From Methanosphaera sp. BMS (GTDB lineage: Archaea > Methanobacteriota > Methanobacteria > Methanobacteriales > Methanobacteriaceae): DNA of 64,000 nucleotides. The position numbers and the translations under genes were made by a program. Position 1 is the first letter of the stretch, and the number at the start of each line of letters is the position of its first letter. Under the pieces are notes generated by a model. The model ran no database searches. It worked only from the letters and a program-made list of their open reading frames with translations, and had not been told where the DNA came from. Positions 45,173 to 63,650 of the stretch are shown piece by piece. The stretch is from positions 930,001 through 994,000 of the forward strand of contig NZ_CP014213.1 in the NCBI RefSeq assembly GCF_003268005.1, in the 5' to 3' direction.

Positions 45173-48082
45173 TCATGCATTAACCCTTATTGTGGTATTA
45201 TATCTGCTTCCAAGATATGCCACCCTGTCACCAGTTACCAGCATGACGTTAATGGTTGTCATGTTAACGTACTTATCAGGCAACTTAAATGACAGATTGA
45301 CTGTACCGTTTACAATGTCAAAGAATACTGACTTAGCGTTTTGCTGCAGTGTCTGACCGTTGATTTTTACGGCTATTGTATTAACACCCAATACGTTATG
45401 GTTATGGCTGTCAAGAAGTCTGGCATTAATGGTTAAATTACCGTTTTTCTTAGCCGTCATACTTGTTATGTTAAAGTGTGTCTGTGTCTTTGTAAGGTTG
45501 AAGTATGTCTTGTTTTCGGCACGCTTATAGTTTCTATGGGAATATACCGCCGTAAGCTTAAATGACCTTGCACTCCAACCGTCAGGTATTGTAAATTCGA
45601 GTGTTGCCCTGTTGTTTTTAACGTTTACCATTATGGTATTGTTCTTGTCATCCTTTATCGTCAAACCGTTTACCTTAAATATCACCACTCCATCGTTGAT
45701 GGTTACACTATCCTTAAGTGTTGCAGTGAATGTTATCTTCTCATCCATCCTCGTTACTAGTGGAGTTGTGGTGACAGTTAACTGGGCAGTTCTAAGGGCA
45801 ACTGCGAGGTTTGCCTTTGTTGTTGAAGGATTGTAGTTGGCGTTTTCAAGGTAGTCCGCCTGCAATTTTATGTTTGAGTTTCTCCAGTGATTCAATGATT
45901 TGAAGCTTATCGTCGCCAGTCCATCTTTAACCTGAATGTTGCCGCTTTTGGTATTCATGTCAGTGATAATGGTATCGTTGTACTTGAAGTTTACAACACC
46001 ACTTTTTACCGCTTTATTGTCCAGGTCAAGTACTGATGCTTTTATGGTTACAATATCCCCTACCGCTACCTTTGTATCGTTTACGGTTATTATGGTATTT
46101 GTCTTGTTGTTGGTTTTGCCGGGTATGGTGAATGTTGCTGTTGTGGAGTTAACCGCCTGTTGGGTTGTGTTACCCGCGTACTTTATTATGAGTCTAGTCT
46201 TACCAGCAGGTAAGTCAAGTGGCTGGTTGATTCGTCCGTTATTGTCCGTTTTTAATTGCAGTGTCTTCTGTGGATGTATGACTGATACTTCCACGTTTCT
46301 TAGTGGCTGTTTGGTTATAAGATCCGTTAATGTCAGATTCAATACCGCCCTGCTTGATACGGTTATGTGGCTTGACATGTTTGTAGGTCTTTTTGTTATG
46401 TTTATCGGCACTACTGTCGTGAAGTTCTGGTATTTGTCACTTCCATTATAGCTTACCTGTATATTGTTTGTTCCTACATTCAATCCGGGACTCATCTGTA
46501 TTTGTCCATTTTTATCTGTTTTGTATTTTGTCTGTCTGTTGTTTATTTTCACTTCCACAATGGCATTTGCTATTGGATTTTTCGTCTTCTGATTGGTTAG
46601 TGTTAACAGGATTGAGTCATTGAGGTATATGTTACTTTTTACTGTAACGTTCAGGTTTACCGGTTGTTTAGGCTGTGGTACGTTTACTGTTATGTTTTTT
46701 GTCACGTTTGTCAGGTTTTCGTTTCCATTGTATTGTAATATGTATTTCTGATTTGCCACGTCAAGCGGTATTGCCAGTTGTATCTGTCCATTTGCATCTG
46801 TCCTTTTGGTTGTTTTCGTATTGTTTGGAAGGGTTACTATGATATCCTGGTTTGGAATTGTCCTGTTGAATATCAGGTCCCTGAGAATGGCCCTTAATTG
46901 GAAGTTGTTGGAGTTGTTCACAAGCGTGTAGTTAAGGTCACTTACACGTTTAATAACTGTGAAGTTGATTGTTTCTGTCCTGTTGTTGTATGTATCGTTT
47001 CCCTTGAAGGTTATGTTTGCATAGTGTTTTGCTACCTTTTCATCCACCTTGAATGCTGCTATTCCATTCTTGTCGGTTTTTATGTTGTATGTTTTTCCGT
47101 CTGCCACCTTGAATGTCAAAGGTGTGTTTGCTAGAATCCTGCTGTTATTATAATCGGTAAGCTTGATTGATATTGAAGTATTTCCAACATATAAACTGTT
47201 TAATGTAACGTTGTATTGAACTATTCTTTTTGGTGTTGGTATATATAGGTTGGTTGATGCATTTGCCGGGTTGTACTTGTAGTTACCGTCGAATGTTATG
47301 TTAACATAGTTATCTCCCGCATTCAAGTCCAAATGTAAGAATGCATTGGCGTTCTTGTCAGTCTTAACCGTAAATGACCTGCCATCGGACAGCTTTATGT
47401 TGATGTTGGCATTTGCTATGGCATTTAATGTATTTGCATCCCTTAGTTTAACCGATATGTTTGCCGATCCGGATTCTTGTTTGACTATATTTACGCTCAT
47501 GTTAACATTGCTCTTGAATACCTCCAATACCAGATCATAGCTGTATGAATTGTATGTGGCATTTCCGGCATAGTCTATTTTAACCGTGTTGTTACCGCTT
47601 GGAAGATTTACTGATAGTCTTGAATAACCGGATGAATTGGTCCTTGTTGATATGACGCTACTGTCGGGAAGTTTTATCTTAAGGTTGGATGACGGTACTG
47701 GCGTGTTGTTTTTAGCGTTGATAACTGCCACGTCAAATGTGGTGTTGCCGACCAGGTTATTTCTTACTATAATGTTATAGGTTACCGATGTCTTTGATGC
47801 CTGTTTAATGTTTTTAGCACTTTGACTTGTCTTATTGGGTGTTTGCTTTAGATTATCTGCCGCCTTATTTTCGTCGTTTTCCAAGTTTTTCCCAATATCT
47901 GATTCTTGAGTTTTAACTATTTCTTTCTGACTTGCATTTACGTTTAGATTACTGTCTGTATCTGCTAATTTATCAGCGGCAATTGAGGATTCATCCATAT
48001 CATGAGCCGATACAAGATTCAATCCAAGAAATACCGCTAGGACAAACAGCAATATGCAAATATTTCTATATTTAATATTCAT
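45173..48082 (-). CDS. adhesin-like protein of Ig-like repeats (969 residues)
   Basis: The signal peptide (ICILLFVLAVFLGLNLVSA) is followed by a Lys/Asn/Ser linker (30-95). About six Ig-like domains follow, with patterns such as LKLRDANTLNAIANANI-type edges, KTDKNGxIAF and NYVNITFDGNYKYN. The C-terminal set of three domains contains VVIFKVNGLTIKDDKNNTIM and MTAKKNGNLTINARLLDSH, closest to the end of the 4377-residue adhesin. Unlike the other adhesins here it is basic rather than Asp-rich. The start ATG 48082 has AGAGGT at the right distance. It has no beta-helix part and no membrane anchor. Presumably exported and held in the pseudomurein wall. Confidence 0.88.
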   Translation of the reverse strand: MNIKYRNICILLFVLAVFLGLNLVSAHDMDESSIAADKLADTDSNLNVNASQKEIVKTQESDIGKNLENDENKAADNLKQTPNKTSQSAKNIKQASKTSVTYNIIVRNNLVGNTTFDVAVINAKNNTPVPSSNLKIKLPDSSVISTRTNSSGYSRLSVNLPSGNNTVKIDYAGNATYNSYSYDLVLEVFKSNVNMSVNIVKQESGSANISVKLRDANTLNAIANANINIKLSDGRSFTVKTDKNANAFLHLDLNAGDNYVNITFDGNYKYNPANASTNLYIPTPKRIVQYNVTLNSLYVGNTSISIKLTDYNNSRILANTPLTFKVADGKTYNIKTDKNGIAAFKVDEKVAKHYANITFKGNDTYNNRTETINFTVIKRVSDLNYTLVNNSNNFQLRAILRDLIFNRTIPNQDIIVTLPNNTKTTKRTDANGQIQLAIPLDVANQKYILQYNGNENLTNVTKNITVNVPQPKQPVNLNVTVKSNIYLNDSILLTLTNQKTKNPIANAIVEVKINNRQTKYKTDKNGQIQMSPGLNVGTNNIQVSYNGSDKYQNFTTVVPINITKRPTNMSSHITVSSRAVLNLTLTDLITKQPLRNVEVSVIHPQKTLQLKTDNNGRINQPLDLPAGKTRLIIKYAGNTTQQAVNSTTATFTIPGKTNNKTNTIITVNDTKVAVGDIVTIKASVLDLDNKAVKSGVVNFKYNDTIITDMNTKSGNIQVKDGLATISFKSLNHWRNSNIKLQADYLENANYNPSTTKANLAVALRTAQLTVTTTPLVTRMDEKITFTATLKDSVTINDGVVIFKVNGLTIKDDKNNTIMVNVKNNRATLEFTIPDGWSARSFKLTAVYSHRNYKRAENKTYFNLTKTQTHFNITSMTAKKNGNLTINARLLDSHNHNVLGVNTIAVKINGQTLQQNAKSVFFDIVNGTVNLSFKLPDKYVNMTTINVMLVTGDRVAYLGSRYNTTIRVNA

Positions 48083-48260
48083 AAAAAACCTCTGATAATT
48101 TATTTGATTAAATAAATCTTAATATAGATACATTTATTTTTTAAGCTATAAAATACTTTTTAAAATAAGTTAATGATAATAATCACATGCCCTTAGGCAA
48201 ATAAGATTAATAAAAACAATATGGACAATTAATAAAACATTGAAAAAAATGGTAATCATA

Positions 48261-48284
48261 GGATAAAAATGAGCATTTTTATCC
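48261..48284 (-). terminator. terminator after the 874-residue adhesin
   Basis: GGATAAAAAT and ATTTTTATCC form ten perfect pairs with a four-base loop, 23 bases past the stop on the minus strand. A T run follows further on (48242-48248). Confidence 0.7.
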
Positions 48285-48306
48285 AATGACTTAAAAATAG
48301 GATATT

Positions 48307-50931
48307 TTATATGATTGTAAGTTTTTGTTCAGCCGTTAATCGTTCAGAACCTGTAGTTACAGCAGTTAATGTGTATTCATTTGCCTTCATGCCTTCAGGA
48401 ATGACATACTCGATAGTTGCAATTCCATCGGTCACTTTAGCATAGATTACCTTACCGTCAGCATCCTTGAGTGTTTTACCGTTGAGCTTACATACAACTC
48501 TTGAAACATCTCCGGTAACTTTTATTGTAAAGGTTACAGTCTGTCCTACACTTGCACTTACAGGTTCGTTTTCAAATTCAATAGAGGATTCTTCCGCATC
48601 AACGTATAATGTTGAAGTGCCTTCTGTTTTGGCAATTCCTGATGAACCACTGTAGATGGCAGTTACTGTTAAGTTTTTGCCTGCAAAGTCATCAGAAACG
48701 AGATAATCGGCTTGAGCCACTCCGTCGGTTACCTTAGCATAGATGACTTTACCCTGAGTATCTTTGACGGTTTTACCGTTTATTTTAAATGTTACTTTAC
48801 CTTTTGTGATGGCATTTCCCAGTACGTCTTCAACGTTAGCGGTTAATGTTACTGTTTCACCTGCATTGGCGGTTATGTCATCCATTGTTATAACGGCCCC
48901 ATATGCCACTACGTCAATGATACTTTGAGTACTGCCCGGTGCGTAGTCGGATGAGGTTGGGATGAATTCAACACTTACATCCAATGAACCTAATTCTGTT
49001 GGTGTTAAATCATAGCTGGCACTGGATCCGGTGGCTATGAGTACTTCCTGGCCATTGATAGTGAATAGGAATGTTCCTGTTACTTCTTGTTTATCAGCAC
49101 CCACTGCATTGGCGGTAATTGTACCTTCCATGTCCTTAACCAGTAGATTTGGTGTTAATTCGACATTAGTGGCAATATAGTTTGATTCTATGACGTTATC
49201 TGTACTGTCCTCGTCACATACTACGGCATCATTTCCAAATAATTCCTCAGATACGAAGACATTGTATTTGATTACATTGTTTTTTGAGTTAATCAAGTCT
49301 ACACAAGCACCGGATATTGTATCAGCATCTGTATTTGTAATGTTTGAGTTTTCAACATCCTCCAGTATGAAGTTGTCATTGTTTGACGTGAATACGCCAT
49401 TATCTATCAGTGAGTTGGTCATACCCTTGAAGATCACATTAGGACCGTTTGCCACATCATAATTCAATTCATTTGATATACGTGTGTTGTTTCCGTTTGA
49501 TGAGTATACACCTGTTGTTGTAGGCTGTACTGTATCCCATGAATCGAGATTTGTTTCGTTCGTCTGTCCAATGATATTTAATGTGTTGTTGTATAGATAT
49601 ACGTTATCGGTTAGGGATAATCCGACACCTATAGCATATGTACCCGTGACGTTTATGGTGTTTGATGTTATGTTAATGTTTTTGAAGGTTATGGCAAAAT
49701 AATCTGAACCGGCAATCTGCATACCATAGGCATTTACTGCTTCAACTGCCATATCGTTGTTTGATATTCTGAAGTTTGATGCTTCGGGAGCTCCCCAAAT
49801 ATTTGCCAGCACCCCGTATGCTGTGTTGTCGGCCTTAAGATAGATTTTGTTGTATTGTATTGTATTATCTGTCATTGGCACCTGTAGTATGTTTAAGCCA
49901 TAGCTGTAGTATGAACTTGTTATGTTTAGTGTATTGTTGGTTAAATTGTTTTTGTTGGCGTTTACTCCAAGGTTTAATCCATATAGGTATCCGCTTCCTA
50001 CTGCCTTAAGGTTGTTATTTGTTACAAGATTGTCTTCTGCCTTGCCCAGCACACCACTTACCGTTATCAGGTCACTTGATCCGTCAAAGCCAACTCTGGT
50101 ATCGGTGTATGTAATGTTATTGTATTGTACAATATTGTTGTTTGACAGGACTGCTATACCTATTACCGGTGATAGATTTGGATTTACATTATAGTCTACA
50201 GGAGCTGATGGGCCTGTAATGTCTATCAGGTTATTTTCCACCAGGTTGTTGTTACCGGTTATGTATACTTCACGTGCAAGTGCATTCGTGAATGTTTTGG
50301 TAATTTTAGAGTTTTTTAGTGTGTTGCCGTCGGTATTGAAGATTACTGTATTGTTAAGCTTTCTATTGACGAAGCTAATGTTATCAATTATAACTTTTGC
50401 CTGATCAAATACACTAATTTGACCTTCATTTAATACTGCATTGTTTCCTTCAACCGTTAGGGTTATACCTCTAAATATGAATGATTTATTGTTGAATGTT
50501 CCATCAAGTATCAATGTACTATCTGAAACCACTTCGGTATTTATCAATTCCCCATATTCATCAAAGAACTGACTGTATGTGTCGTCAGTTATGGTGAATG
50601 ACTGTGCCGTTTTAATGCTTTTTGCATTTTTAACATCCCCCAGGGTATTTTCACCTGAAGGTAATTCATCCATATTTTCATCGTTGACTATGCTTGTAGC
50701 TGTATCTTTCTTAACTTCTTTTGTTTGAATGTTCTTGTTGATATAATCATTATTATTATCGACAACCGTATTATCCACATCACCACTTATCGTGTCATCG
50801 GCGATACCTGTGGTATCTGTGGCCATACTATCTTGAGCATCATCTGCTGCTACTGCAGAGACTGTTACAAGTAATATGAGTACTGTTGTCAATAAGAATA
50901 ATCCTTTCATATTCTTATACATAATATTCAT
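48307..50931 (-). CDS. adhesin-like protein, beta-helix plus Ig-like C-terminus (874 residues)
   Basis: A signal peptide (GLFLLTTVLILLVTVSAVAA) and Asp/Asn linker, then a parallel beta-helix from about 110 to 610 with NosD-like turns (SNNNIVQYNNITY, NNLTNNTLNITSSYYSYG). Three Ig-like domains follow; the last two hold KVTFKINGKTVKDTQGKVIY and RVVCKLNGKTLKDADGKVIY. From residue 110 to the end it is a close paralogue of the next gene upstream (51319-55092). The start is ATG 50931 or 50922: the first follows the palindrome CTCATGAG directly, the second has GAGATGA in front. It is probably transcribed alone, since a terminator precedes it and its own promoter box is present. Confidence 0.88.
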   Translation of the reverse strand: MNIMYKNMKGLFLLTTVLILLVTVSAVAADDAQDSMATDTTGIADDTISGDVDNTVVDNNNDYINKNIQTKEVKKDTATSIVNDENMDELPSGENTLGDVKNAKSIKTAQSFTITDDTYSQFFDEYGELINTEVVSDSTLILDGTFNNKSFIFRGITLTVEGNNAVLNEGQISVFDQAKVIIDNISFVNRKLNNTVIFNTDGNTLKNSKITKTFTNALAREVYITGNNNLVENNLIDITGPSAPVDYNVNPNLSPVIGIAVLSNNNIVQYNNITYTDTRVGFDGSSDLITVSGVLGKAEDNLVTNNNLKAVGSGYLYGLNLGVNANKNNLTNNTLNITSSYYSYGLNILQVPMTDNTIQYNKIYLKADNTAYGVLANIWGAPEASNFRISNNDMAVEAVNAYGMQIAGSDYFAITFKNINITSNTINVTGTYAIGVGLSLTDNVYLYNNTLNIIGQTNETNLDSWDTVQPTTTGVYSSNGNNTRISNELNYDVANGPNVIFKGMTNSLIDNGVFTSNNDNFILEDVENSNITNTDADTISGACVDLINSKNNVIKYNVFVSEELFGNDAVVCDEDSTDNVIESNYIATNVELTPNLLVKDMEGTITANAVGADKQEVTGTFLFTINGQEVLIATGSSASYDLTPTELGSLDVSVEFIPTSSDYAPGSTQSIIDVVAYGAVITMDDITANAGETVTLTANVEDVLGNAITKGKVTFKINGKTVKDTQGKVIYAKVTDGVAQADYLVSDDFAGKNLTVTAIYSGSSGIAKTEGTSTLYVDAEESSIEFENEPVSASVGQTVTFTIKVTGDVSRVVCKLNGKTLKDADGKVIYAKVTDGIATIEYVIPEGMKANEYTLTAVTTGSERLTAEQKLTII

Positions 50932-50992
50932 CTCATGAGTTAAAATTATTAATCAAAAATGTTTTATTTCTGATTAATGATTATATATATGT
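50929..50992 (-). promoter_or_regulatory. adhesin promoter box with inverted repeat (copy 1)
   Basis: Going upstream from ATG 50931: CTCATGAG palindrome (50932-50939), then ATTAATCA (50948-50955), 15 bases, TGATTAAT (50971-50978), then a TATA-like ATATATATAA (about 50980-50990). The same order, arms and 15-base spacing occur at the 1257-residue paralogue. The predicted transcription start falls inside the inverted repeat, so a repressor site or 5' hairpin is plausible. Confidence 0.55.
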
Positions 50993-51260
50993 CTATATTA
51001 CTATTAAATACTTACTAAAGCTTGGATTAAATAATAATATCCTAATAGTTTATAATACAGTGAATAATTCATTTATATCGTTTAATTTTATAAAATCATA
51101 AATAATTTCTATTAATAATTAAATATTTGGTGTATTGTTTATTCTTAATAAAGCCTTAAAGAACTATTAAAAAAGTAGATATAATACATGTAATAATAAT
51201 AAAGTTTGAAAAATCCAATAAATATCTAAAATAAAAATGAATAATCGAATAAAAAAATAG

Positions 51261-51305
51261 TAAAAAAGATAGGATAAGAAAATCATTATTTTTTTTTATC
51301 CCATC
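51261..51305 (-). terminator. terminator after the 1257-residue adhesin
   Basis: On the minus strand GATGGGATAA (51305-51296) pairs with TTATCCTATC (51277-51268), ten pairs with one G-T, followed by TTTTTTA. It lies 14 bases past the stop. Confidence 0.65.
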
Positions 51306-51318
51306 GAAAATAATCAAT

Positions 51319-54300
51319 CTATTCTGTAATTGTAAATTTTTGCTCAGCAGTTAAACGTTCTCCGCCCATGGTTACGGCACTTAACGTGTAATCTTTTGCC
51401 TTCATACCTTCAGGAATTACATAATCAACAGTTGCAATTCCATCAACGACTTTAGCATAGATTACCTTACCGTTAGCATCCTTAAGACTTTTACCGTTTA
51501 TCTTAAATACAACTTTTGTAGCATCTCCGGTAACTTTTACTGTAAATGTTACAGTCTGGCCAACTTTAGCCGTTACAGGCTCATTTTCAAATTCAATACT
51601 AGCCTCATCATCCTTGATTAATAATGTTGAGGTGTTTTGAACTTTTGCAAATCCTGCTGAACCAGCATATACAGCGGTAATGGTATAGTTTTGACCTGCA
51701 AGATCTTCAGGTACAGTGTATTCGACTGAAGCTACACCGTCAACTACCTTAGCATAAATTACTTTACCGTTAGCGTCTTTGACTGTTTTACCGTTTACCT
51801 TAAATGTTACTTTACCAATGTTGATGTTGTTTCCGAGCATGTCTTTAACAGTTGTTGTGAGTGTGACTGTTTCACCAGCGTTAGCTGTCACTTCAGACAC
51901 ATTCAGTACTGCCTGGTTACTGACTACAGGAATAGTTACTGTAGCTGTGGAAGGCTGGTATGAAGTGCTTGAAGGGATAAATTCAACCGTTAGCTCCAAG
52001 TCTCCGATAGTTGTTGGTGTGTATACAACTGTGGTTGTATTGCATGTTTGAGATACTGCAAATTGCTCACCATTTATATATATTGCAAATGTACCGTTAA
52101 CTTTCTTATTGTCAGATCCAAGGGTACTGACGGTAATGTCATTTTCTACATTTACATATAACTCTTCCGGAGCAACAATGATGTCTGTGGTATATGGTAT
52201 GTTACTTGTTATTACATTTGTCGTACTTGACTCATCACAAGATACTGCATTATCTCCCATTGCTTCCTGAGCATAGAATGTGTTTGTTTTGATGGTGTTG
52301 CCGTTTGAGTTAATCAAGTCAACCGTATTGGCTGAGGTTGTGTTTGCCTTTGTATTTGTAATGTTTGAGTTTTCCACGTTTTCAAGTATGAAATTGTCAT
52401 TGTTTGATATGAATGCTCCATTATATATCTGTGATGTGGTCATGTCTTTAAAGATTACATTAGGACCGTTTGTCACAGTATAATTTAATTCGTTATATAC
52501 ACGGGTGTAGTTTCCATTTGCTGAGTATACACCAGCTGTTGTAGGCTGTACACTATCCCATGAATAGAAATCTGTTTCGTTTGTCTCTCCGTAGATTTTT
52601 AATGTGTTACGGTATAGGTATACGTTATTGGTCATTGATAATCCAACACCCATAGCATATGTACCTGTAACTGTAATATTGTTATATGTTATGTTAAGGT
52701 TTTTGAATATTATTGGAGTACCATAATCGGAACCTGCAATCTGTGCTCCATAAGCATTTACTGATTCTACGGTAATGTTGTTGTAGTTTACTTTGAAGTT
52801 TGATACTTCAGGTTCTCCCCAGACATTTGCAAATACACCATAAGCGGTTACAAGAGATTTTAATGTAATGTTATTGTATAATATTGCATTGTTTGTCATT
52901 GGAACTTCCAGTATGTTTACACCATATGAATAGTACACACTGTCAATGTTCACCTTGTTGTATGAAAACTCATTGTCGTTAGCGTTTACACCTAGGCTTA
53001 ATCCATATAGATATCCACTACCTACTGCAGTCAGGTTGTTTCTTGTTACGTTGTTGTTTTTGGCTACCCCTAATTTTCCATTGATGGTAATAAGGTCAGT
53101 TGATCCGAAACCCTCCTCATTTGTATCGATATATGTTACATTGTTGTATCGAACTATGTTATTGCTTGAAAGTATTGCAATACCGATTACAGGTGATATT
53201 GGAAGATCAGAACTATAATCTATAGAAGATGATGGTCCTGTAATGTCAATGCTGTTGTATTCCACAGTGTTTTTATTACCTGTTATGTATACTTCACGTG
53301 CAAGTGCATTTGTGAAATTCTTGATAATTTTTGAGTTTCTTAAGATGTTTCCATCTGTTCCAAATATTACACTGTTGTTTAGTTGGCTATTGTTGAATGT
53401 AACATTTTCAACTACTGCCCTACCATTAGCGACAGTTACTATCTGACCGTTGTTTAGTACTGCATCGTTACCTTTTATTGAAAATACCGTATCATTAAAT
53501 ACGAATGACTTATTGTTGAAGGTTCCTTCAAGTATCAATGTACTGAAACTGGATAGTTCTGTACTGTTAACTTTACCGTTTTCATCAAAGTACTTACTGT
53601 ATGTTTCATCGGTTATGGTAAATGTACCTGTTGTTGGCTGGTTATCTTCAATTACGGTTGTTGTTTTTGTAGTTTTTACAGCATCATTACCTGCCTTACC
53701 TGCTGCATATATGGTGTTGTTTGCTACTACAACCCCATCTGTTGTGACAACTACCGCCGTTTCATTGGTGGTGTTTATCAGGTTATCTTTTATTGTAACG
53801 TTAGCTGCGCTAACTGCTATAGCACCGGTAATGTTGTTGTTTGTTATGTTTGAGTTTTTACCGTTTGAAGATATGGTTATTTCACTTAGGTTAAGATTTG
53901 ATAGGTTTATAGGCTGGGATACTGTTGTTAAACCTGTAGCTATGCTGTTGGTAAATGAAATATTTGCACCGCTAAGTGTTACATTGAATAATGTATTGTT
54001 ATTTGCGGTTACATTTGCCTGAAGTGTTACTTTACCTGTTCCGTAATGTACGTTACCATTAAACACACCATTTGCACTTACGGCAACATTTACGGTTCTG
54101 TAGAATTCATTATCTATGAATGTACCGTTTGTACCGGAACTGGCTGATCCTCCACTGTAGAATTTGTTACCTTTAATTAATGTACGGGTAGCCATGTTCT
54201 GTAACGGATTGCTTATTCCACCGCTTCCACCGATAACTGTACAGTTAATTACATTATTGTCAAAGTTGGTCATGGTGTAACCAGCAGGCATATCCTGAGT

Positions 54301-55092
54301 ATTGTATGGGTTACCTACATATAATAGGTTTCCAACGTTACCTTCACCCTGAACTGTACAGTTTATGATTGTACAGTTGTTACATCCTGTCCATACGAAT
54401 GATGAACTTCCACCATTGTTTTCTGTGTAGATGGTACAGCTGTCCATCGTAACATTATTACAGTATCTAAGAGAGGTCTGACCTACTCCTCCACCAACAC
54501 TTGCATCTTTTACATACATTGTCATGTTATACAATACTGAATCATAGAGATTATGTACCCAACATTCGGTATTGTAGAGGTATAATCCACTAATGTTGGA
54601 ACCGGATGCTCCATTTCTGATTGCAAATAAATTACCAGGATTTTCACCTAATAGACTTCCAGATTTTGTATGTAAACTAATAACTGCATCCTGTGTAGAT
54701 GATATTACATTAACGGGTTTGTTTATTTCCAATGAATGATTTTTATCAATAGTTCCCTGGAAATCCAATATGTCTCCTTCTGCAATGGAATCGGATAGAC
54801 TATATTTTTCTCCGCCAAATATTTCATCCACATTATCGTTGTTTACTATGTGTGTTGTTGCATCTTTTTTAACTTGCTTTTCTACATTTTTATTTATATT
54901 ATTACTTATACTTTTATCAACGACAGCACTGTCGGCCGTATTACTAGCCGCATCATCAACCGATACGGAAGTATCTGCAGCCACATCACTATCAGCATCA
55001 TCGACCGCTGATACGGCCGCGATACCGACAAGTAGCATGAGTACTGTTGTCAATAAGAATAATCTTTTAATATTCTTATGCATAATTTTCAT
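51319..55092 (-). CDS. adhesin-like protein, double beta-helix plus Ig-like C-terminus (1257 residues)
   Basis: The signal peptide (RLFLLTTVLMLLVGIAAVSA) is followed by a 380-residue N-terminal beta-helix region not found in the neighbour (about 100-480; NNVTMDSCTIYTENNGG, GCNNCTIINCTVQGEGN). A second helix and Ig-like part from about 490 to 1257 is closely similar to the 874-residue protein next door. The last two Ig-like domains carry KVTFKVNGKTVKDANGKVIY and KVVFKINGKSLKDANGKVIY. Start ATG 55092 or 55083, with the same ambiguity and leader sequence as the neighbour. Lack of an anchor and wealth of Asn-x-Thr sequons match the other adhesins. The pair points to recent tandem duplication followed by gain or loss of the first domain. 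Confidence 0.88.
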   Translation of the reverse strand: MKIMHKNIKRLFLLTTVLMLLVGIAAVSAVDDADSDVAADTSVSVDDAASNTADSAVVDKSISNNINKNVEKQVKKDATTHIVNNDNVDEIFGGEKYSLSDSIAEGDILDFQGTIDKNHSLEINKPVNVISSTQDAVISLHTKSGSLLGENPGNLFAIRNGASGSNISGLYLYNTECWVHNLYDSVLYNMTMYVKDASVGGGVGQTSLRYCNNVTMDSCTIYTENNGGSSSFVWTGCNNCTIINCTVQGEGNVGNLLYVGNPYNTQDMPAGYTMTNFDNNVINCTVIGGSGGISNPLQNMATRTLIKGNKFYSGGSASSGTNGTFIDNEFYRTVNVAVSANGVFNGNVHYGTGKVTLQANVTANNNTLFNVTLSGANISFTNSIATGLTTVSQPINLSNLNLSEITISSNGKNSNITNNNITGAIAVSAANVTIKDNLINTTNETAVVVTTDGVVVANNTIYAAGKAGNDAVKTTKTTTVIEDNQPTTGTFTITDETYSKYFDENGKVNSTELSSFSTLILEGTFNNKSFVFNDTVFSIKGNDAVLNNGQIVTVANGRAVVENVTFNNSQLNNSVIFGTDGNILRNSKIIKNFTNALAREVYITGNKNTVEYNSIDITGPSSSIDYSSDLPISPVIGIAILSSNNIVRYNNVTYIDTNEEGFGSTDLITINGKLGVAKNNNVTRNNLTAVGSGYLYGLSLGVNANDNEFSYNKVNIDSVYYSYGVNILEVPMTNNAILYNNITLKSLVTAYGVFANVWGEPEVSNFKVNYNNITVESVNAYGAQIAGSDYGTPIIFKNLNITYNNITVTGTYAMGVGLSMTNNVYLYRNTLKIYGETNETDFYSWDSVQPTTAGVYSANGNYTRVYNELNYTVTNGPNVIFKDMTTSQIYNGAFISNNDNFILENVENSNITNTKANTTSANTVDLINSNGNTIKTNTFYAQEAMGDNAVSCDESSTTNVITSNIPYTTDIIVAPEELYVNVENDITVSTLGSDNKKVNGTFAIYINGEQFAVSQTCNTTTVVYTPTTIGDLELTVEFIPSSTSYQPSTATVTIPVVSNQAVLNVSEVTANAGETVTLTTTVKDMLGNNINIGKVTFKVNGKTVKDANGKVIYAKVVDGVASVEYTVPEDLAGQNYTITAVYAGSAGFAKVQNTSTLLIKDDEASIEFENEPVTAKVGQTVTFTVKVTGDATKVVFKINGKSLKDANGKVIYAKVVDGIATVDYVIPEGMKAKDYTLSAVTMGGERLTAEQKFTITE

Positions 55093-55166
55093 CTCATGAG
55101 TTTAAAGATTATTAATCAAATTTAATTAAATATTGATTAATGATATACTATTTGTATAAATAAATA
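55090..55166 (-). promoter_or_regulatory. adhesin promoter box with inverted repeat (copy 2)
   Basis: Upstream of ATG 55092: CTCATGAG (55093-55100), ATTAATCA (55111-55118), 15 bases, TGATTAAT (55134-55141), and a TATA-like TTTATTTATAC (about 55155-55165). The layout matches copy 1 at 50929-50992, including the 15-base spacing, although the spacer sequences differ. The rest of 55167-55394 is AT-rich with nothing recognised. Confidence 0.55.
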
Positions 55167-55394
55167 TTAATGATTTACTGTTAGTTTCTATAATACAATA
55201 AAATAATAATAATGCATATAAATTAAAAATAATTAAATATATACCAATAAATTAAAAAATAAATAATAAATTGCTTGTTTGATAAAATCAACATATATAA
55301 CAACACACATGAAAAAAATAACCTTTATCACGCGAGTTTAAAAAGAAAAATAGTATTTTAGTAATGCAAAAAAAATAAGATAAAAAAGAGGATT

Positions 55395-57311
55395 TTAATG
55401 TGAATTATCAAGCACTACATCCTCATCCTTATGGCTAATATTTATAATCGTTGAATCATCATCCACACTAAACAATCCATAGTTGATTACAAGATAATTA
55501 TTAACACCCATATTGGAAAGGGTAGTGTTGAAAAGATACAATGACGCACTGTTATATAAAGTGGCATTAACCTTGGCCTTGTTTAACGTGAACCTTGAAC
55601 CGGTAACGGTAACACTGGCCTTAGAATTGTCGTCAACGTTATACAATCCACTACCCACATGACACGTATTATTCTTAACGGCACATACATTCATCCTTAA
55701 AGAGCCAATATTATATATTAATCCATACACCGCCCTATTATGATTAACAGTCGTGTAGTTCATGATCAAATTACCGCTATTATATATCGTACCATTACGT
55801 GTGGCCTTGTTCTTATATATGTTACCCTTATATATGCTGGCGGTAGCACCACGTCTATTGAAAATAACAGAGCCATATACGGCAGTGTTAAACTTCATCG
55901 TAGGAGTATACAAGTCAAGATAACCGCAGTTGTAAATACAGCCGCCCATCTTCAGTGCCACATTATGGTTATAATAATCCTTAGCAGCCTTAAAGACCCT
56001 GCAGTTATATAAAACCGCACCCTTAGCTGCAGTATTATAACAGAAACTATTATTATACGAGACAATCTTAGCATTATTAAGAATAATGCCCAAGCCATCG
56101 GACGTATTGTTTGTGAATACATTACCGGTTAAGTTAACATCAAACCTATTGTATAATACGGCACCGCTACGGCCAGTATTGTTCTCAAAGAGATTGCCCA
56201 CTATTTCAAGACGATTCTTGGAACCATAATAATGACTGGTATTTGTCAGATTAATAATGTTGGTCACACTATTAGATAAAAAGCGGTTATGAGATATCCA
56301 TGAATCGCCAAAATTACTGCATCCGTAAAATAGGATGTAGTTAACGTCATTGTCCTCAAAAAGGTTATCCGAGATATTAAGTAACTCATAATCATGCATA
56401 CTATATATGACACTGCCCCTATGATTAACGTTGGACGTGAAGTTACAACGGACAATACTTACATTAGCCTGCTGATAAATACGGATAAACGAATCATTAT
56501 ACTGATAAGGATTATCAACACCATCAGAACCATCAAAGCTGTTACCCTTGAAGAGTGAATCGCCTATAAAAAGATTATACTCACTGGAAATGTAGGAACA
56601 TGAATTATTAGTAAAGCTACAGTTAACAACCGTCAAGTTATCATAAGCATAAATAACATAACTGTCACCGACAAAACTGCAATTGTTCAACAATAAATTA
56701 ATATTACCAAAGATAGATACACTTGAATTGGTAAAGGTACAGTTGTTAAATGACAAACTTGAAAAAGCGATAGACCTCTCACTATCCATCTCATAAACCG
56801 TTTCAAACACGCCCTCAAATGAGACATTTGAATCAAGCACATTCAGGTTATTAACCACAATTATAGATTCACGAAGACCAATATCAAATGAATAATTATT
56901 CGTCACCAACGTATTATCGTTAGCCTCAATAGTCAATGACCGCTTAAGTCCACTGCAACCATAAACATCAACAGTAGCGTTAAACGAATCACCGGCAACA
57001 TAACTAGAATTATTCATATTGATAGTCCTATTCCTACGGACATTCGAATAATTCCTAATAGAGTTACATAATGAGTCATAATCATCAACGGTCACGCTTG
57101 GATGAAGATAGTCATTGAGCCTGCGTTGAATTTCATCATCACTCAATGAAGAAGAACTACCCGGCAAATCAGACAGATAACTCGAATCAAGTACATTGCT
57201 ACGATAAGAAGTACCGGCAGAGCTATCATTCAAATCGGCGGCACAAACACAGCCCACCATGAAAGTCAATAAAAACAATATAAAAACTATGAAAAAGCCA
57301 TGCGACTTCAA
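55395..57311 (-). CDS. adhesin-like protein, beta-helix only (638 residues)
   Basis: A signal peptide (GFFIVFILFLLTFMVGCVCA) with a lipobox-like MVGC as well as a normal cleavage site. A linker follows, then a Pmp/beta-helix body from about 90 to 620 (SLSFNNCTFTNSSVSIF, LFEDNDVNYILFYG, GGCIYNCGYLDLYT). It differs from its neighbours in having no Ig-like domains and none of their shared C-terminal module; it ends within beta-helix-type sequence (DDDSTIINISHKDEDVV). The start is TTG 57311 with GGGAGGT 12 bases in front; the ATG-like codon nearby is out of frame. It is Tyr- and Cys-richer than the other adhesins. If exported, it must be retained differently or released. Confidence 0.85.
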   Translation of the reverse strand: MKSHGFFIVFILFLLTFMVGCVCAADLNDSSAGTSYRSNVLDSSYLSDLPGSSSSLSDDEIQRRLNDYLHPSVTVDDYDSLCNSIRNYSNVRRNRTINMNNSSYVAGDSFNATVDVYGCSGLKRSLTIEANDNTLVTNNYSFDIGLRESIIVVNNLNVLDSNVSFEGVFETVYEMDSERSIAFSSLSFNNCTFTNSSVSIFGNINLLLNNCSFVGDSYVIYAYDNLTVVNCSFTNNSCSYISSEYNLFIGDSLFKGNSFDGSDGVDNPYQYNDSFIRIYQQANVSIVRCNFTSNVNHRGSVIYSMHDYELLNISDNLFEDNDVNYILFYGCSNFGDSWISHNRFLSNSVTNIINLTNTSHYYGSKNRLEIVGNLFENNTGRSGAVLYNRFDVNLTGNVFTNNTSDGLGIILNNAKIVSYNNSFCYNTAAKGAVLYNCRVFKAAKDYYNHNVALKMGGCIYNCGYLDLYTPTMKFNTAVYGSVIFNRRGATASIYKGNIYKNKATRNGTIYNSGNLIMNYTTVNHNRAVYGLIYNIGSLRMNVCAVKNNTCHVGSGLYNVDDNSKASVTVTGSRFTLNKAKVNATLYNSASLYLFNTTLSNMGVNNYLVINYGLFSVDDDSTIINISHKDEDVVLDNSH

Positions 57312-57659: not shown

Positions 57660-58184
57660 TTAAAATTCACAAAGTGAAACAATCCAAACAATCCACTGTC
57701 TTGCTGATTGAGCACGTCTACGTAAAGTAACTTCCGAATTGATATGATATAATTTCATATCTTTTATAATTTCATATATCTCATCACTTGAGGGAACATG
57801 ACTTGATACAATAAAACGATAAAATATATCATGAAATGGTTTGTGACTTAATATTAATTCAACAATTATCAAATTTCTAGTTCTTTTATCTAAATTAAAT
57901 AAAACTTCACCTAGCACTGTTAATTCAGTTCCACTATCTAATATATACAAATAGCGTCCAGCACTAATATAGAAATTAAAGTGTCGTGGTTTAAGATTAT
58001 GTTTAATTTTCAATTCTTCAATTGACATATTATTTTTTATCGAAAGACAAAAATTTACAAAATTGTTAAAGTTATCCACCTGTGGAAATGGACATTGAGG
58101 TTCATCGATAATTTTAACTCGTTTATAAATCTTTAATATCTCTCCTATTGTTATTTTTTTTCTACTTTCATTATTATCCTTCAT
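57660..58184 (-). CDS. uncharacterised protein beside the helicase-ATPase operon
   Basis: A soluble protein of 174 residues. It starts at ATG 58184, behind AAGGGGG; the frame is open eight codons further upstream. Residues 45-75 look like a helix-turn-helix (NNMSIEELKIKHNLKPRHF). Residues 80-115 hold YLYILDSGTELTVLGEVLFN, as in winged-helix proteins. The C-terminus (TLRRRAQSARQWIVWIV) resembles a block I remember from small proteins next to restriction or defence genes, but I cannot name the family with confidence. It is divergent from the defence-like operon and separated by about 860 bases, and it shares the operon's A/T-ending codons. It may be a regulator or accessory factor (inference). 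Confidence 0.6.
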   Translation of the reverse strand: MKDNNESRKKITIGEILKIYKRVKIIDEPQCPFPQVDNFNNFVNFCLSIKNNMSIEELKIKHNLKPRHFNFYISAGRYLYILDSGTELTVLGEVLFNLDKRTRNLIIVELILSHKPFHDIFYRFIVSSHVPSSDEIYEIIKDMKLYHINSEVTLRRRAQSARQWIVWIVSLCEF

Positions 58185-59047
58185 TTGTACGCCCCCTTCA
58201 AAATTCAACCCATTTATCTTCTATGTCATTATACATTATTCAAAATTGTAAATCATAACTACATAGGATCACTTGGTTTAAATCTGCATCAATAAGGATT
58301 TATTGTTATTTAATAAACATGCATCAGTACTTTCATAATCTCAAGCAATTTTAGTCTTTGAGAAGAACCTGTTTTTAATTTTTTGTTAAATGAGGTTAAT
58401 TAATCAGAATATGTCCATCAAAACCAATTTATGATTCAAGATATAAAATTTTTCATTTCTTTCATTTAATCCGGCTTCTAATATACATTCATTATGAATT
58501 TACAATATATTACATAAATAAGAATCAATTTTTAAAAGACATATTGTAAAAATTAGAGCAATTTCTACTTTTAAAAGAATCATAAAAAATAGGTTCAACT
58601 AAAAAAAAACTTTTTTTACCTCATTATTTATTTTCTATTAATTAAAATACATTATAAAAACATTATTTTTGCATATATAACTTTATGATTTCAAATATAA
58701 AAGGTTAAGGTTTAATTAATTAATAATCATTATTAAAACTTATTTTTAGAAAAAATTAATGATCATTTTTTTAAATCACATTGAAAACATTTTTATAATC
58801 GTATTGATCATGATCCTTTTAGATCTATTTTTGACACGAATATAAACTATATTTTTACAGTATTTTTTTAAATTATAACGGATTGAAATATTTCTAAATG
58901 AATAAAGAATAATAATTGTTTTTTAATTTTTCTTAATTGTGCAAATAATTAAATGGTTATTCAAATAGGCCTTTTTTAGTAACTTATATATTATAATTTA
59001 AAGAGATATTAATATAAACTATTAATAATGAATATGTAGGTTATAAT
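58185..59047. other. long intergenic region upstream of the helicase operon
   Basis: Extremely AT-rich with no open frame of note and no tRNA- or CRISPR-like structure. A TATA-like CTTATATATTATAA at about 58982-58995 would start transcription near 59015. AGGT at 59037-59040 is the ribosome site for ATG 59048. T runs near 58610-58617 could end leftward or rightward transcripts. Confidence 0.45.
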
Positions 59048-61066
59048 ATGTCCTTTAATGATATAAAAAATCAAATAAAAAAAACTTATAATTCTGCTGT
59101 GGATAATATTGTAGACGATTTTTATAATATTGTTTTATCTGAAGCCGTACGGTATGATAGAATTTCAGGTTTTTTTAGTTCTACTAGTTTAGCAATTGCC
59201 GCGAGAGGTATGGATCATTTTATCCAAAATGGTGGACATATGAGATTATTGTGTAGTTGTAAACTAAGTGAAACTGATTTAACTGCTATCAATAATTCGC
59301 AAGATTATAAAGAATACATTTCAAAAGAATTTTTAGAAGATATTGATAATTTAGAAGATGAATTAATCAAAAATCATGTGAAAATGTTGGGATGGATGAT
59401 TTCTAATGATTTATTAGAAATTAAGATTGGTTTAAACATTAAGGATAACCAGAGTGATTCAATGTTACATATTAAAAAAGGTATCTTATATGATTCTGAT
59501 GAACAAGCAATCTTATTTGAAGGTTCTGTTAATGAAACCGCATATGGTTGGTATAATAACATTGAATCCTTTAAAGTTTTTAATAGTTGGAATACGAATG
59601 AATATATTATGGATGATATAAATATATTTGAAGACTTTTGGAATAATAAAAATGAATCATTAGAAGTAATAGATGTTCCAGATGCTTGTAAAAATAAACT
59701 TGTAGAGATAGCCCCAAAAACTGAACAAGAATTCAAAAAACTAAATACATTTTTTAAATCTAAAAAACCAATATTAAGAGATTATCAAAAAAAAGCTATT
59801 GATATTTGGATAAAAAATAACTGCTGTGGCATATTTTCCATGGCTACAGGTACAGGAAAGACTTTCACAGCATTATCAGCTTTAGATCAATTAAATAAAA
59901 AAAATTCCATATTAAATGTTATAGTTTGTCCTCAAAATCATTTAATCAATCAATGGGAAGATAATATTAAACAATTTGGGATAGATTATAAAGTTATTAT
60001 AGCAAGTGGAGATAATGGAAATTGGGAAGAAGAAGTATTTGATTCCATAATTGATATAAACTGTAGAATTACTAAAAATATAATTATTCTGACAAATTTT
60101 GATATATTTTGTAAAGAAAAATTTATTAAATGTATTGAGGAATATGAAGGCATTTCATTAATTATTGTTGATGAAGTACATGGAGTTGGTTCTGGAGAAT
60201 ATAGTAAAGGTTTACTAAATTCTTATAATTATCGGTTAGGTTTAAGTGCAACACCAGATATAGAAGATGATTTAGAAAGAACTGATTTAGTAAATGATTA
60301 TTTCATAAATGGTACTATTTATGAATATAGTTTAGAAAAAGCAATAAAAAATGGATTTTTAACACCTTATAATTATTATCCCATATTTATAGATTTAGAT
60401 GATGATGATTTGGATTTATATATTGAATATACACATAATCTAGCCAGATCTTTTTTTAGTAAAACTAACAAAAATAAAGATTCATTTAGTTATTGGGTTA
60501 AGAAAAGAAGAGATTTAATAAATAAGGCTCCTCATAAATATGATTTCTTAATAGAATTTTTAAAAGAAAATGAAGATATTAAAGACACAATCATATATTG
60601 TAGTGAAAATAAACAGGTTCAAAAAGTTCAAAAAATTCTTAATGAATTTGGTATCAGAAATCATGAATTTACTGGAAAAACATCCCATTCAAAAGATAAA
60701 GACAATACTTCTCAAAGAGATAAGATATTAAAAGAATTTGAAAGCGGTTTTTACAATGTTTTGGTAGCTATTAAATGTTTAGATGAAGGTGTGGATATTC
60801 CTTCAGCTAAAAATGTAATTTTAATGGCAAGTACAACAAATACACGACAACACATACAACGTAGAGGCCGTATTTTAAGAAAAAGTCCGGGTAAATCTAT
60901 TGCAAACATATATGATTTAATTGTATTCCCAGAAGTAAATTTCAATGATAGTATGTTTAATAGTATATTATTTAATGAAATGCGTCGATATGATGAATAT
61001 GCTTATTTAGCAGAAAATTCAACTGAATGTAGTAAAATAATAATTCAAAAAATGAGGCGATTGTAA
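59048..61066 (+). CDS. PLD-like nuclease fused to a superfamily 2 helicase
   Basis: A protein of 672 residues and first gene of a four-gene operon. The N-terminal 200 residues are phospholipase-D-like: RISGFFSSTSLAIAARGM, then HIKKGILYD (His141, Lys143) and EGSVNETAYGW (Gly159-Ser160-Asn162), a single HKD-type site that would work as a dimer. Residues 240-670 are a DEAD/DEAH helicase: LRDYQKKA (Q-like), Walker A ATGTGKT (266-272), DEVH (375-378), LGLSATP, IIYCSENKQVQKV, and motif VI TTNTRQHIQRRGRILR. PLD-helicase proteins are common in antiviral systems, where they cut or unwind foreign DNA. The next gene starts within its stop (TAATG). Codons end largely in A/T. Target and trigger unknown. 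Confidence 0.88.
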   Translation: MSFNDIKNQIKKTYNSAVDNIVDDFYNIVLSEAVRYDRISGFFSSTSLAIAARGMDHFIQNGGHMRLLCSCKLSETDLTAINNSQDYKEYISKEFLEDIDNLEDELIKNHVKMLGWMISNDLLEIKIGLNIKDNQSDSMLHIKKGILYDSDEQAILFEGSVNETAYGWYNNIESFKVFNSWNTNEYIMDDINIFEDFWNNKNESLEVIDVPDACKNKLVEIAPKTEQEFKKLNTFFKSKKPILRDYQKKAIDIWIKNNCCGIFSMATGTGKTFTALSALDQLNKKNSILNVIVCPQNHLINQWEDNIKQFGIDYKVIIASGDNGNWEEEVFDSIIDINCRITKNIIILTNFDIFCKEKFIKCIEEYEGISLIIVDEVHGVGSGEYSKGLLNSYNYRLGLSATPDIEDDLERTDLVNDYFINGTIYEYSLEKAIKNGFLTPYNYYPIFIDLDDDDLDLYIEYTHNLARSFFSKTNKNKDSFSYWVKKRRDLINKAPHKYDFLIEFLKENEDIKDTIIYCSENKQVQKVQKILNEFGIRNHEFTGKTSHSKDKDNTSQRDKILKEFESGFYNVLVAIKCLDEGVDIPSAKNVILMASTTNTRQHIQRRGRILRKSPGKSIANIYDLIVFPEVNFNDSMFNSILFNEMRRYDEYAYLAENSTECSKIIIQKMRRL

Positions 61067-61230
61067 TGATAGATTATGATTTAGAAATTTTAAATTATAT
61101 TGATAATTCTGATTTTGAAGAGAATATGAAAATTTTTCTGAAATCGGCAATAACTTATGAATTGTTTGAAGAACCTCGACATTATAAAAACAAGTATGAT
61201 AAATTAATAGAAAATGCTATAGAGGAATAA
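61066..61230 (+). CDS. 54-residue protein inside the helicase-ATPase operon
   Basis: ATG 61066 shares a base with the TAA of the helicase gene, and the TAA at 61228-61230 is one base before the ATPase ATG. The peptide begins MIDYDLEILNYIDNSDF and ends LIENAIEE. It is acidic, probably all helical, with no membrane segment or known motif. The perfect fit between its neighbours is strong evidence that it is translated. It could be a structural partner or regulator of the two enzymes. Confidence 0.75.
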   Translation: MIDYDLEILNYIDNSDFEENMKIFLKSAITYELFEEPRHYKNKYDKLIENAIEE

Positions 61231-61231
61231 T

Positions 61232-63193
61232 ATGTATTTAGATTATGTTGAATTGGAGAATTATAGACCGTACTACGGTAAACAGAGAATAAATTTTGGT
61301 TTTGATGATAATAAAAATTTAACTGTTATTCTAGCTGAAAATGGTAGTGGAAAATCAACATTTGTAAATGGTATTACATGGTGTTTATTTGGTGATGAAA
61401 AACATGATGATAGAGAAAAAACAGAACCATTATATAATAAAATCATGGCTGAAGAATTAGAATCTGAGGATTTTACATCTTTAAATGTTAATATAACAAT
61501 TCGTTTTTTTGATATCATCAATAATGAAAAAAAATATTTCACAGTTTTCCGGAATGAAGAATATAATAATTGGGGAAATTCTTGGGAAAAAAGTACTCAG
61601 CATTTAACCATTGAAACATTTGATGGAAGTGTTTATAAAGATGATATGGCTCAATATAAAATTATTGGAACAATACCTGAGGATATGTTTCAGTATTTCT
61701 TTTTTAATGGAGCTTCTTTAAATAACTATTTTAATGAAAATTCAAAGTTAAATCTAAAAGAATCAATTTATAATATATCTCAATTAGATATTATTTCTAA
61801 TGTTCAAAAACATATCAAAGGATGTTTAGATAAATATAATGCTGATTATAAAAAACTTAGCAATAATCATGAAAAAAATTATAATGGATTAATAAATAAG
61901 CTCAATAAACAAAAAAGTGCTAAAGAAAATGAACAAAAGGATAATTATAAAAAAATTGATGAAGCTATTAATAATATTAAAATGTGTGATTTAGAATTAG
62001 ATAATGTTGATATTAGCGAAGTTGATACATTAACTTCAGATAGAGAAAGTATACAAAAGGAACTTAAAAAATCACAAAATGATTATAATGAAATATATGA
62101 AAAATATGAGAAAAAAATTATTCAATTATATCCATTAGTCGTTTTATTTGATGAATTAAGTAAGGCTTATGAAATTACTCATAATGCTAAAAAAAAGAAA
62201 ACAGCTCCTCCTAAAGTTGAAATTGAACTGTTGAGAGATATTTTGAGTGATGGTATATGTATTTGTGGAACAGATATTAATGAACATGATGAATGTATAA
62301 AAATTTTAACTGATAGATTAAATAACACCAGTAATGTAACTAAGGATGATTTTTATGAATATTATTATTTATTCCAAGAAAAATTAAAAGAGTTATATTC
62401 AATTCATGATATAGATGATATGAAAAATTCATTAAACTCTTTAAAAGAGTCTATCAGTCTTAAAAAAGATCAATTAAATGATATTTCACAAAAATTATCA
62501 AATATGAATGAAGCAAAAATTAAAAGATTAGAAAACGAACGAGTGAAAAATATAAATATTAGAGATAGATTACGAAAAGATAATGAAAGGTTATCGAAAG
62601 ATATTGAAAAATTAGATTCTGATATTGATGATTTGAAAGATGAAAGAGAAAAACAAACTGTAACTAACAGTAAAGCAAGATCTTTGAATAAAAAAATATT
62701 TTTTACAGAAGATGCATTAGAAAAAACAAAATCATTATCTTCTGATGTTGAAATGTTTATAAGAAATAAAGTGAATGAAAACACCAAACAACAATTTACA
62801 AAGATTAACTGGAAAAATGATAAATATACTGATGTGATTTTAAATGAGGATTATTCAATAAATATTGCTAAGTACGATGAATATGTCACTCCTAATGATC
62901 TTTCTGATGGTGAAGTAAATTTATTAGCTTTATCTTTTATGATGGCATTACATAGTTTAATTGGTTTTGAAATTCCAATTTTTATTGATGCACCATTTGA
63001 AAATCTAGATACAAATAAACGTTTAGATTTTGTTCAAGGATTACATGCATTCACATCTAACAAACAAATTGTTTTTTTACTAACCGATAGTCAATATACA
63101 TCAGATGTTAAATCAGCAATGAAACCAAATGTTTTTAATGAATATCAATTAATTCCTCTAGAAAAAAATAAAACGGTGATAAAAAATGAATAA
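61232..63193 (+). CDS. Rad50/DndD-like AAA ATPase with coiled coil
   Basis: A protein of 653 residues with the SMC/Rad50 head-coil-head plan. The N-terminal head has LENYRPYYGKQRINF and Walker A AENGSGKS (35-42), as in DndD-type proteins. Long charged coiled coils run from about 185 to 310 and 380 to 510. Between them lies a CIC motif (Cys343, Cys345 in GICICGTDI), a possible short zinc hook. The C-terminal head has the ABC signature LSDGEVNLLALSF (557-569) and Walker B IFIDAPFENLD (about 583-593). Such ATPases sense or tether DNA ends. It is tightly coupled to both neighbours: one base from the 54-residue gene and an eight-base overlap with the next. Confidence 0.88.
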   Translation: MYLDYVELENYRPYYGKQRINFGFDDNKNLTVILAENGSGKSTFVNGITWCLFGDEKHDDREKTEPLYNKIMAEELESEDFTSLNVNITIRFFDIINNEKKYFTVFRNEEYNNWGNSWEKSTQHLTIETFDGSVYKDDMAQYKIIGTIPEDMFQYFFFNGASLNNYFNENSKLNLKESIYNISQLDIISNVQKHIKGCLDKYNADYKKLSNNHEKNYNGLINKLNKQKSAKENEQKDNYKKIDEAINNIKMCDLELDNVDISEVDTLTSDRESIQKELKKSQNDYNEIYEKYEKKIIQLYPLVVLFDELSKAYEITHNAKKKKTAPPKVEIELLRDILSDGICICGTDINEHDECIKILTDRLNNTSNVTKDDFYEYYYLFQEKLKELYSIHDIDDMKNSLNSLKESISLKKDQLNDISQKLSNMNEAKIKRLENERVKNINIRDRLRKDNERLSKDIEKLDSDIDDLKDEREKQTVTNSKARSLNKKIFFTEDALEKTKSLSSDVEMFIRNKVNENTKQQFTKINWKNDKYTDVILNEDYSINIAKYDEYVTPNDLSDGEVNLLALSFMMALHSLIGFEIPIFIDAPFENLDTNKRLDFVQGLHAFTSNKQIVFLLTDSQYTSDVKSAMKPNVFNEYQLIPLEKNKTVIKNE

Positions 63194-63650
63194 TTCAAAT
63201 TCTGACAGGATTCCAATCGAAAAAAATAAAAGAAACTTATTCACAGAATTAAAAAAAGATATTGAAGGTCCATTAAAAAATTCTGACATTCGTAGTAATG
63301 ATATTTATAACTTAGCCATAGCATTTGGTTATAAAAATAAAATTAGAATGCCTATTTCTAAAAAAGATCAATTTATACGACAAGAAAATTTTGGAAAATC
63401 TTTAAAGGCTATAATTTACTCTTTAGCTATAAGTAATTCAAAAGAAAACATAGATATATTATCTGAAGATTATGATAAGAAATATCTTGTTGCCCAAGAA
63501 TTTGCAAATGGTGGCATAGACTTTTTATCAAATAGTTATAAAAGAGATGTCGATAAATTCATTAATAAATTAAGATTAGAAATTTCTAAATTAAATAAAG
63601 ACGATAAAATTTTAAATAAATTAAAAGAAATGGGAATAGAAGATAATTAA
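63186..63650 (+). CDS. 154-residue final protein of the helicase-ATPase operon
   Basis: ATG 63186 overlaps the last eight bases of the ATPase gene, so translation is coupled. The protein is basic and mostly helical: RNLFTELKKDIEG, NLAIAFGYKNKIRMP, FGKSLKAIIYSLAIS, and a Lys-rich tail. In size and position it recalls small DndE- or DndD-associated proteins, but I see no clear DndE signature. DNA binding is possible. It ends the operon; a short hairpin follows 36 bases later. Confidence 0.75.
   Translation: MNNSNSDRIPIEKNKRNLFTELKKDIEGPLKNSDIRSNDIYNLAIAFGYKNKIRMPISKKDQFIRQENFGKSLKAIIYSLAISNSKENIDILSEDYDKKYLVAQEFANGGIDFLSNSYKRDVDKFINKLRLEISKLNKDDKILNKLKEMGIEDN

Follow-up and report, generated by a model that had tools for sequence, protein, structure and literature searches.

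The Four-Gene Locus and Its Neighbours

Four tightly packed genes on the + strand occupy positions 59048-63650 of the window, i.e., of the whole 64,000-nucleotide stretch of Methanosphaera sp. BMS DNA that was analysed (G000:C1:989048-993650). The host genome is one contig of 2.87 Mb, 99.96% complete, and the closest named relatives at the locus are Methanosphaera. The features are:

57660..58208, - strand: DUF7226 protein, 182 aa, upstream of and divergent from pbeA (PF23871, E=2.7e-27)
59048..61066, + strand: pbeA, fusion of an HKD/PLD nuclease and an SF2 (type I/III-like) helicase, 672 aa (PADLOC, TIGR04095, ResIII, Helicase_C)
61066..61230, + strand: pbeB, 54-aa small protein, fast-evolving (assigned by its place between pbeA and pbeC and by the published description)
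61232..63193, + strand: pbeC, ABC ATPase of the CxC clade, sister to DndD, 653 aa (PADLOC PbeC, CIC motif)
63186..63650, + strand: pbeD, DndE cognate, 154 aa (TIGR04062, predicted fold)
G000:C1:994168-995430 (L001:9168-10430), + strand, wholly outside the window: B12-binding radical-SAM protein (rSAM), 420 aa (PF02310, CxxxCxxC)

The TAATG join, one-base gap and eight-base overlap between the genes, reported in the preliminary description of this DNA, are borne out by the ORF coordinates, and its motif readings hold. The first protein has the PLD motif HIKKGILYDSDEQAILFEGSVN at residues 141-162 and the SF2 helicase motifs TGTGKT (267), DEVHG (375), and QRRGR (604). The third has an SMC/Rad50-type head with NGSGKS (37), LSDGE (557), and FIDAPFENLD (584). 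These motifs and the gene order were found again in about 30 related genomes, and the four-gene arrangement is therefore not due to chance. A/T-rich candidate sequences are seen for a TATA box and a terminator of the locus; the A/T-ending codons of the four genes are no more than an effect of the A/T-rich genome. Very large secreted adhesin-like proteins are encoded in a row (window 45173-57311, - strand) that directly adjoins the defence locus.

Identity of the Four Genes

By profile matches and gene order, the four genes are PbeABCD, each gene having its counterpart there at the same place. PbeABCD was described by Xiong (2019; PMC6459918) and was named the CxC-DndE system by Rakesh (2024; PMC10853773). 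In the latter redefinition, PbeA combines an HKD nuclease with an SF2 helicase, PbeB is small and disordered, PbeC is an ABC ATPase of the CxC type, and PbeD is a DndE cognate (PMC10853773). In the cassette of Haloterrigena jeotgali A29 the genes are ordered in the same way, and the second and fourth encode proteins of 66 and 152 residues (PMC6459918). This cassette is matched here by the PLD, ResIII, and helicase domains of the first protein, the AAA ATPase, and the small proteins of 54 and 154 residues. Unlike the present locus, which is without DndC and has rSAM as its neighbour, the Pbe genes of H. jeotgali A29 adjoin dndCDEA and need phosphorothioate.

The strongest match is that of gene 1 to the PADLOC PbeA profile PDLC02707, which covers residues 9-663, its full length (E=1.8e-218, 725 bits). 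Gene 1 also matches ResIII, Helicase_C and, below the curated cut-off, TIGR04095 (phosphorothioation restriction enzyme), and its HKD motif is kept in 29 relatives. Gene 3 matches the PADLOC PbeC profile PDLC02723 (E=5e-88, 294 bits) and, below cut-off, the NCBIfam DndD profile TIGR03185 (E=7.6e-40). The CxC apex motif of PbeC is CIC at residues 343-345; in an alignment of 33 PbeC sequences, CxC occurs in 23, CxxC in 9, and neither in one. For PbeB no convincing library profile match was obtained, and the protein is assigned by size, place, and weak same-place homologues, the pbeB place in relatives holding small ORFs that are 36-49% identical.

PbeD is, by profile and predicted fold, a DndE relative with two ribbon-helix-helix units. 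It matches the NCBIfam family TIGR04062 (dnd_assoc_4) with E=3.4e-13, below the cut-off of that family, and has no PDB sequence match by profile. A strand-helix-helix repeat is seen twice in its predicted model (pLDDT 87), and the best 13 PDB fold matches are all DndE (including 7x4e, 4lrv, and 5wtu), with probabilities of 0.51-0.98 and weak E-values (0.13-1.1).

The match to PbeABCD supports the original reading in so far as it saw a defence operon whose effector is a PLD-helicase and whose ATPase is DndD-like. The same reading had called the operon undescribed and a distinct system loading on DNA ends, and had set beforehand, as the finding that would speak against this, a named system sharing the gene order. 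Such a system was found, and it is PbeABCD (PMC6459918, PMC10853773). The operon had also been described as lacking DndE, which is wrong, since the 154-residue protein is a DndE relative by TIGR04062 and predicted fold. The absence of DndC was confirmed, and the lack of a DndC partner for the four genes in the genome is what favours a distinct system. Given the family-level PADLOC and NCBIfam profile matches and the published PbeABCD order, this interpretation is rejected as highly improbable.

Known and Candidate Modification Genes in the Genome

No match to DndC was found in the complete genome, and a search for canonical DndD returned only PbeC and one marginal stretch. With no DndC and no second DndD in a near-complete, single-contig genome, phosphorothioate is rejected as the self-mark here. 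No Dam-type methylase was found in the genome. Its N6, N4, and C5 methylase matches, which include type I HsdM-like and C5 methylases, are at least hundreds of kilobases distant from Pbe, and no methylase-motif ORF is present within about 10 kb on either side of the locus. No Drm family is listed among the PADLOC matches of the four proteins and, unlike in DISARM, there are no Drm genes in the window.

The rSAM gene starts 517 bases downstream of pbeD, 168 bases past the end of the window. The protein, encoded by a single copy in the genome, combines a B12-binding domain (PF02310, 53.5 bits) with the radical-SAM CxxxCxxC motif.

Pbe and rSAM in Methanobacteriaceae

Counting only strong matches (>350 bits), 33 of 120 Methanobacteriaceae genomes carry PbeA, and the A-B-C-D order was found in about 25 loci. 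A phylum-wide PbeA search added little, the phylum genomes searched being nearly all Methanobacteriaceae. DndC above cut-off accompanies Pbe in one of the 33 genomes (G050), which was not counted as an archaeal case, the other genes of the contig, among them a glycosidase gene, looking bacterial.

rSAM was found in 22 of the 120 genomes, a frequency at which a housekeeping role in the family is rejected, and 20 of the 22 also have Pbe (Fisher p=3e-12; 13 genomes with Pbe only, two with rSAM only, 85 with neither). Good coverage was available for 27 Pbe neighbourhoods: rSAM alone was found in 13, a Dam-type or C5 methylase alone in nine, both in four, and DndC in one. None (0/27) is devoid of all three, which indicates that rSAM fills the modification slot. 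Several observations count against rSAM as the self-marker of Pbe. Two genomes of the family have rSAM and no Pbe, 12-13 Pbe genomes have no rSAM, and four neighbourhoods hold both rSAM and a methylase. In the present locus rSAM lies 517 bases off, with no translational coupling to Pbe, and in the two congeners it is oriented away from pbeA.

Other features recur near these loci. The DUF7226 family (cluster c3) occurs in 20 Pbe neighbourhoods, in one case (L036) fused to a DpnI-type reader domain, and is a possible accessory of Pbe. A 980-aa helicase by many Methanobrevibacter Pbe loci was considered as a type I HsdR and rejected; it consists of PLD, ResIII, and DUF3427 and has a NUDIX neighbour. 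In another genome of the same genus (L058, 6728-10550), PbeA is split by a 486-aa ORF on the opposite strand, probably a transposon, and rSAM is intact. The Methanobrevibacter locus L049 has two ATPase-DndE pairs together with a Dam-type methylase and rSAM, as if there were one mark per pair.

rSAM Beyond the Family

When GTDB was scanned with an rSAM alignment, 80 loci spread over many phyla were obtained; Pbe partners in them were called with PbeA, PbeC, and PbeD profiles built from Methanobacteriaceae. Because the rSAM query was taken from Pbe neighbours, only loci outside Methanobacteriaceae are an independent test. rSAM adjoins PbeABCD in 28 of the 80 loci, and 14 of these 28 are outside the family. 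They come from Chloroflexota, Clostridia, Phycisphaerae, Actinobacteria, Coriobacteriia, Elusimicrobia, Stahlbacteria, Dojkabacteria, Desantisbacteria, WS1, Nanoarchaeota, and other lineages, mostly as metagenome bins, so that single lineage assignments may be wrong. Across GTDB, rSAM is repeatedly the last gene of the module, with gaps mostly of -38 to +62 bases, and PbeD is usually directly before it (gap about -32 to +62 bases).

DISARM-like genes lie beside rSAM in 15 of the 80 loci. Representatives match DrmA (E=1e-110), DrmB (2.5e-23), DrmC (4.5e-14), and DrmE_C (5.6e-13), and thus homologues of DrmA/B/C(/E) adjoin the same rSAM family as Pbe does. The DNA methylase of classical DISARM is of an ordinary type. 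In 13 of the 15 DISARM-rSAM loci, the fetched flank contains no methylase-motif ORF. For example, the operons L140, L141, L145-L147, L108, and L164 have DrmA/B/C and a DrmE-like or ~1,090-aa protein, with rSAM last.

Two further modules, one with a GHKL ATPase and one with a ParB-like protein, each precede rSAM in about 11 of the 80 loci. Both are also found joined with Pbe in operons that have only one rSAM (L138, L154, L161). The former comprises the ATPase and a ~330-aa protein (L114-L117, L123, L128, L139, L142, L151, L153), the latter the ParB-like protein and a ~505-aa protein with conserved His motifs (L113, L129, L159, L165, L168). Both look like uncharacterised restriction modules. 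The remaining dozen loci mostly end short upstream.

A quick tree of 88 rSAMs has at least 35 partner changes vs. a minimum of five, and along its starred branches the Pbe label must change at least 12 times; so many partner changes are the pattern of an interchangeable module. Viral contigs L169-L178 carry rSAM without Pbe or restriction genes, and in L175 and L176 the ORF that follows it directly has C5-methylase motif I. Marinitoga camini virus 1 (L179) has a distant copy. No plasmid match was found for rSAM.

Fold and Class of rSAM

The predicted rSAM model (pLDDT 93) has as its best fold matches TsrM, CysS, and TokK (E 4e-12 to 8e-8), which are cobalamin-dependent radical-SAM methylases. 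In common with these, rSAM has a B12-binding and radical-SAM fold and CxxxCxxC, the cysteines C165, C169, and C172 being invariant in 71 sequences. Some members have a weak B12 domain, a point against rSAM as a cobalamin-type self-marker. Unlike TsrM, CysS, and TokK, with which it shares 12-13% identity, rSAM is shorter, reaches no NCBIfam family (best 22.7 bits vs. a cut-off of 481), and is linked to restriction modules, not to biosynthesis. No PADLOC model and, by profile, no PDB sequence matched it. The resemblance to TsrM suggests by analogy that rSAM may methylate a carbon beyond the reach of ordinary methylases.

Proposed Mechanism and Alternatives

The roles proposed here for the four Pbe proteins are taken by analogy from published work on relatives. 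In those relatives all four pbe genes add to the virus block, protection needs a DNA mark, and Pbe without the mark is neither toxic nor active (PMC6459918). PbeC and PbeD together would scan DNA, as an ATPase joined to a ribbon-helix-helix DNA binder; PbeA would be the helicase-nuclease arm, and PbeB may be a small regulator. The most likely role of rSAM would be to write a non-phosphorothioate mark on the host's own DNA, probably by methylating a base or backbone atom left untouched by ordinary methylases; incoming DNA without this mark would be blocked by Pbe. Whereas the four genes are a PbeABCD restriction module, rSAM is, judged from gene context and predicted fold, probably the self-mark enzyme that goes with it. 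The wider proposal is put forward with slightly better than even confidence: rSAM, as a widespread cobalamin-dependent enzyme, would form a new class among DNA-modifying enzymes, with a chemistry unlike that of Dam, C5, and N4 methylases and DndC; it would be the interchangeable self-marker of PbeABCD and DISARM as well as of two or more uncharacterised restriction modules of anaerobes, and in phages a means of anti-restriction protection.

Alternatively, the locus could be an ordinary solitary PbeABCD that is idle or relies on a mark from an unlinked methylase elsewhere, with rSAM an unrelated neighbour. Both options were offered for the 165 of 553 PbeAC loci without a linked modification gene (Xiong, 2019; PMC6459918), and the distant HsdM-like and C5 methylases of the present genome could supply such a mark. 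This is rather unlikely, given that the sole rSAM copy of the genome adjoins Pbe and that the tightly spaced rSAM-Pbe link recurs in many phyla.

rSAM might also be a defence partner that does not mark DNA, for instance as the maker of an antiviral nucleotide in the manner of viperins, or as a modifier of tRNA or of a protein of Pbe or DISARM. Viperin is itself an antiviral radical-SAM enzyme and a weak fold match of rSAM, and the many different effectors that rSAM accompanies would fit such a role. Against it, the B12-dependent methylases are far ahead of viperin in fold (E 4e-12 vs. 5e-3), rSAM takes the slot of the DNA methylase in DISARM and of Dam/C5 enzymes in Pbe loci, and phages carry it without restriction genes, as they do DNA methylases. 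A non-marking role is thus considered distinctly unlikely.

Significance

The four genes are known; what is new is the recurrent link of rSAM with Pbe and DISARM. No literature linking radical SAM with Pbe, Dnd, DISARM, or restriction was found, subscription papers and supplements lying outside the search, and the novelty of the link is therefore not proven; the available parts of the main text of PMC6459918 and PMC10853773 contain no link of radical SAM with Pbe.

More than half of the known PbeAC loci are without linked DndCD (PMC6459918). The present locus resembles the solitary PbeAC loci with methylases (PMC6459918, PMC10853773) in having Pbe without DndC and with another modification gene, and differs from those described there in that the partner is not a known DNA methylase. 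A radical-SAM partner is a concrete, testable answer to the question, left by the available text of both papers, of which mark the DndCD-less Pbe loci use. If the proposal is true, DNA could be marked at positions that ordinary methylases leave unmodified, the methylase-free DISARM loci would be explained, and a hidden DNA modification would be predicted in gut methanogens, ANME archaea, and many candidate phyla.
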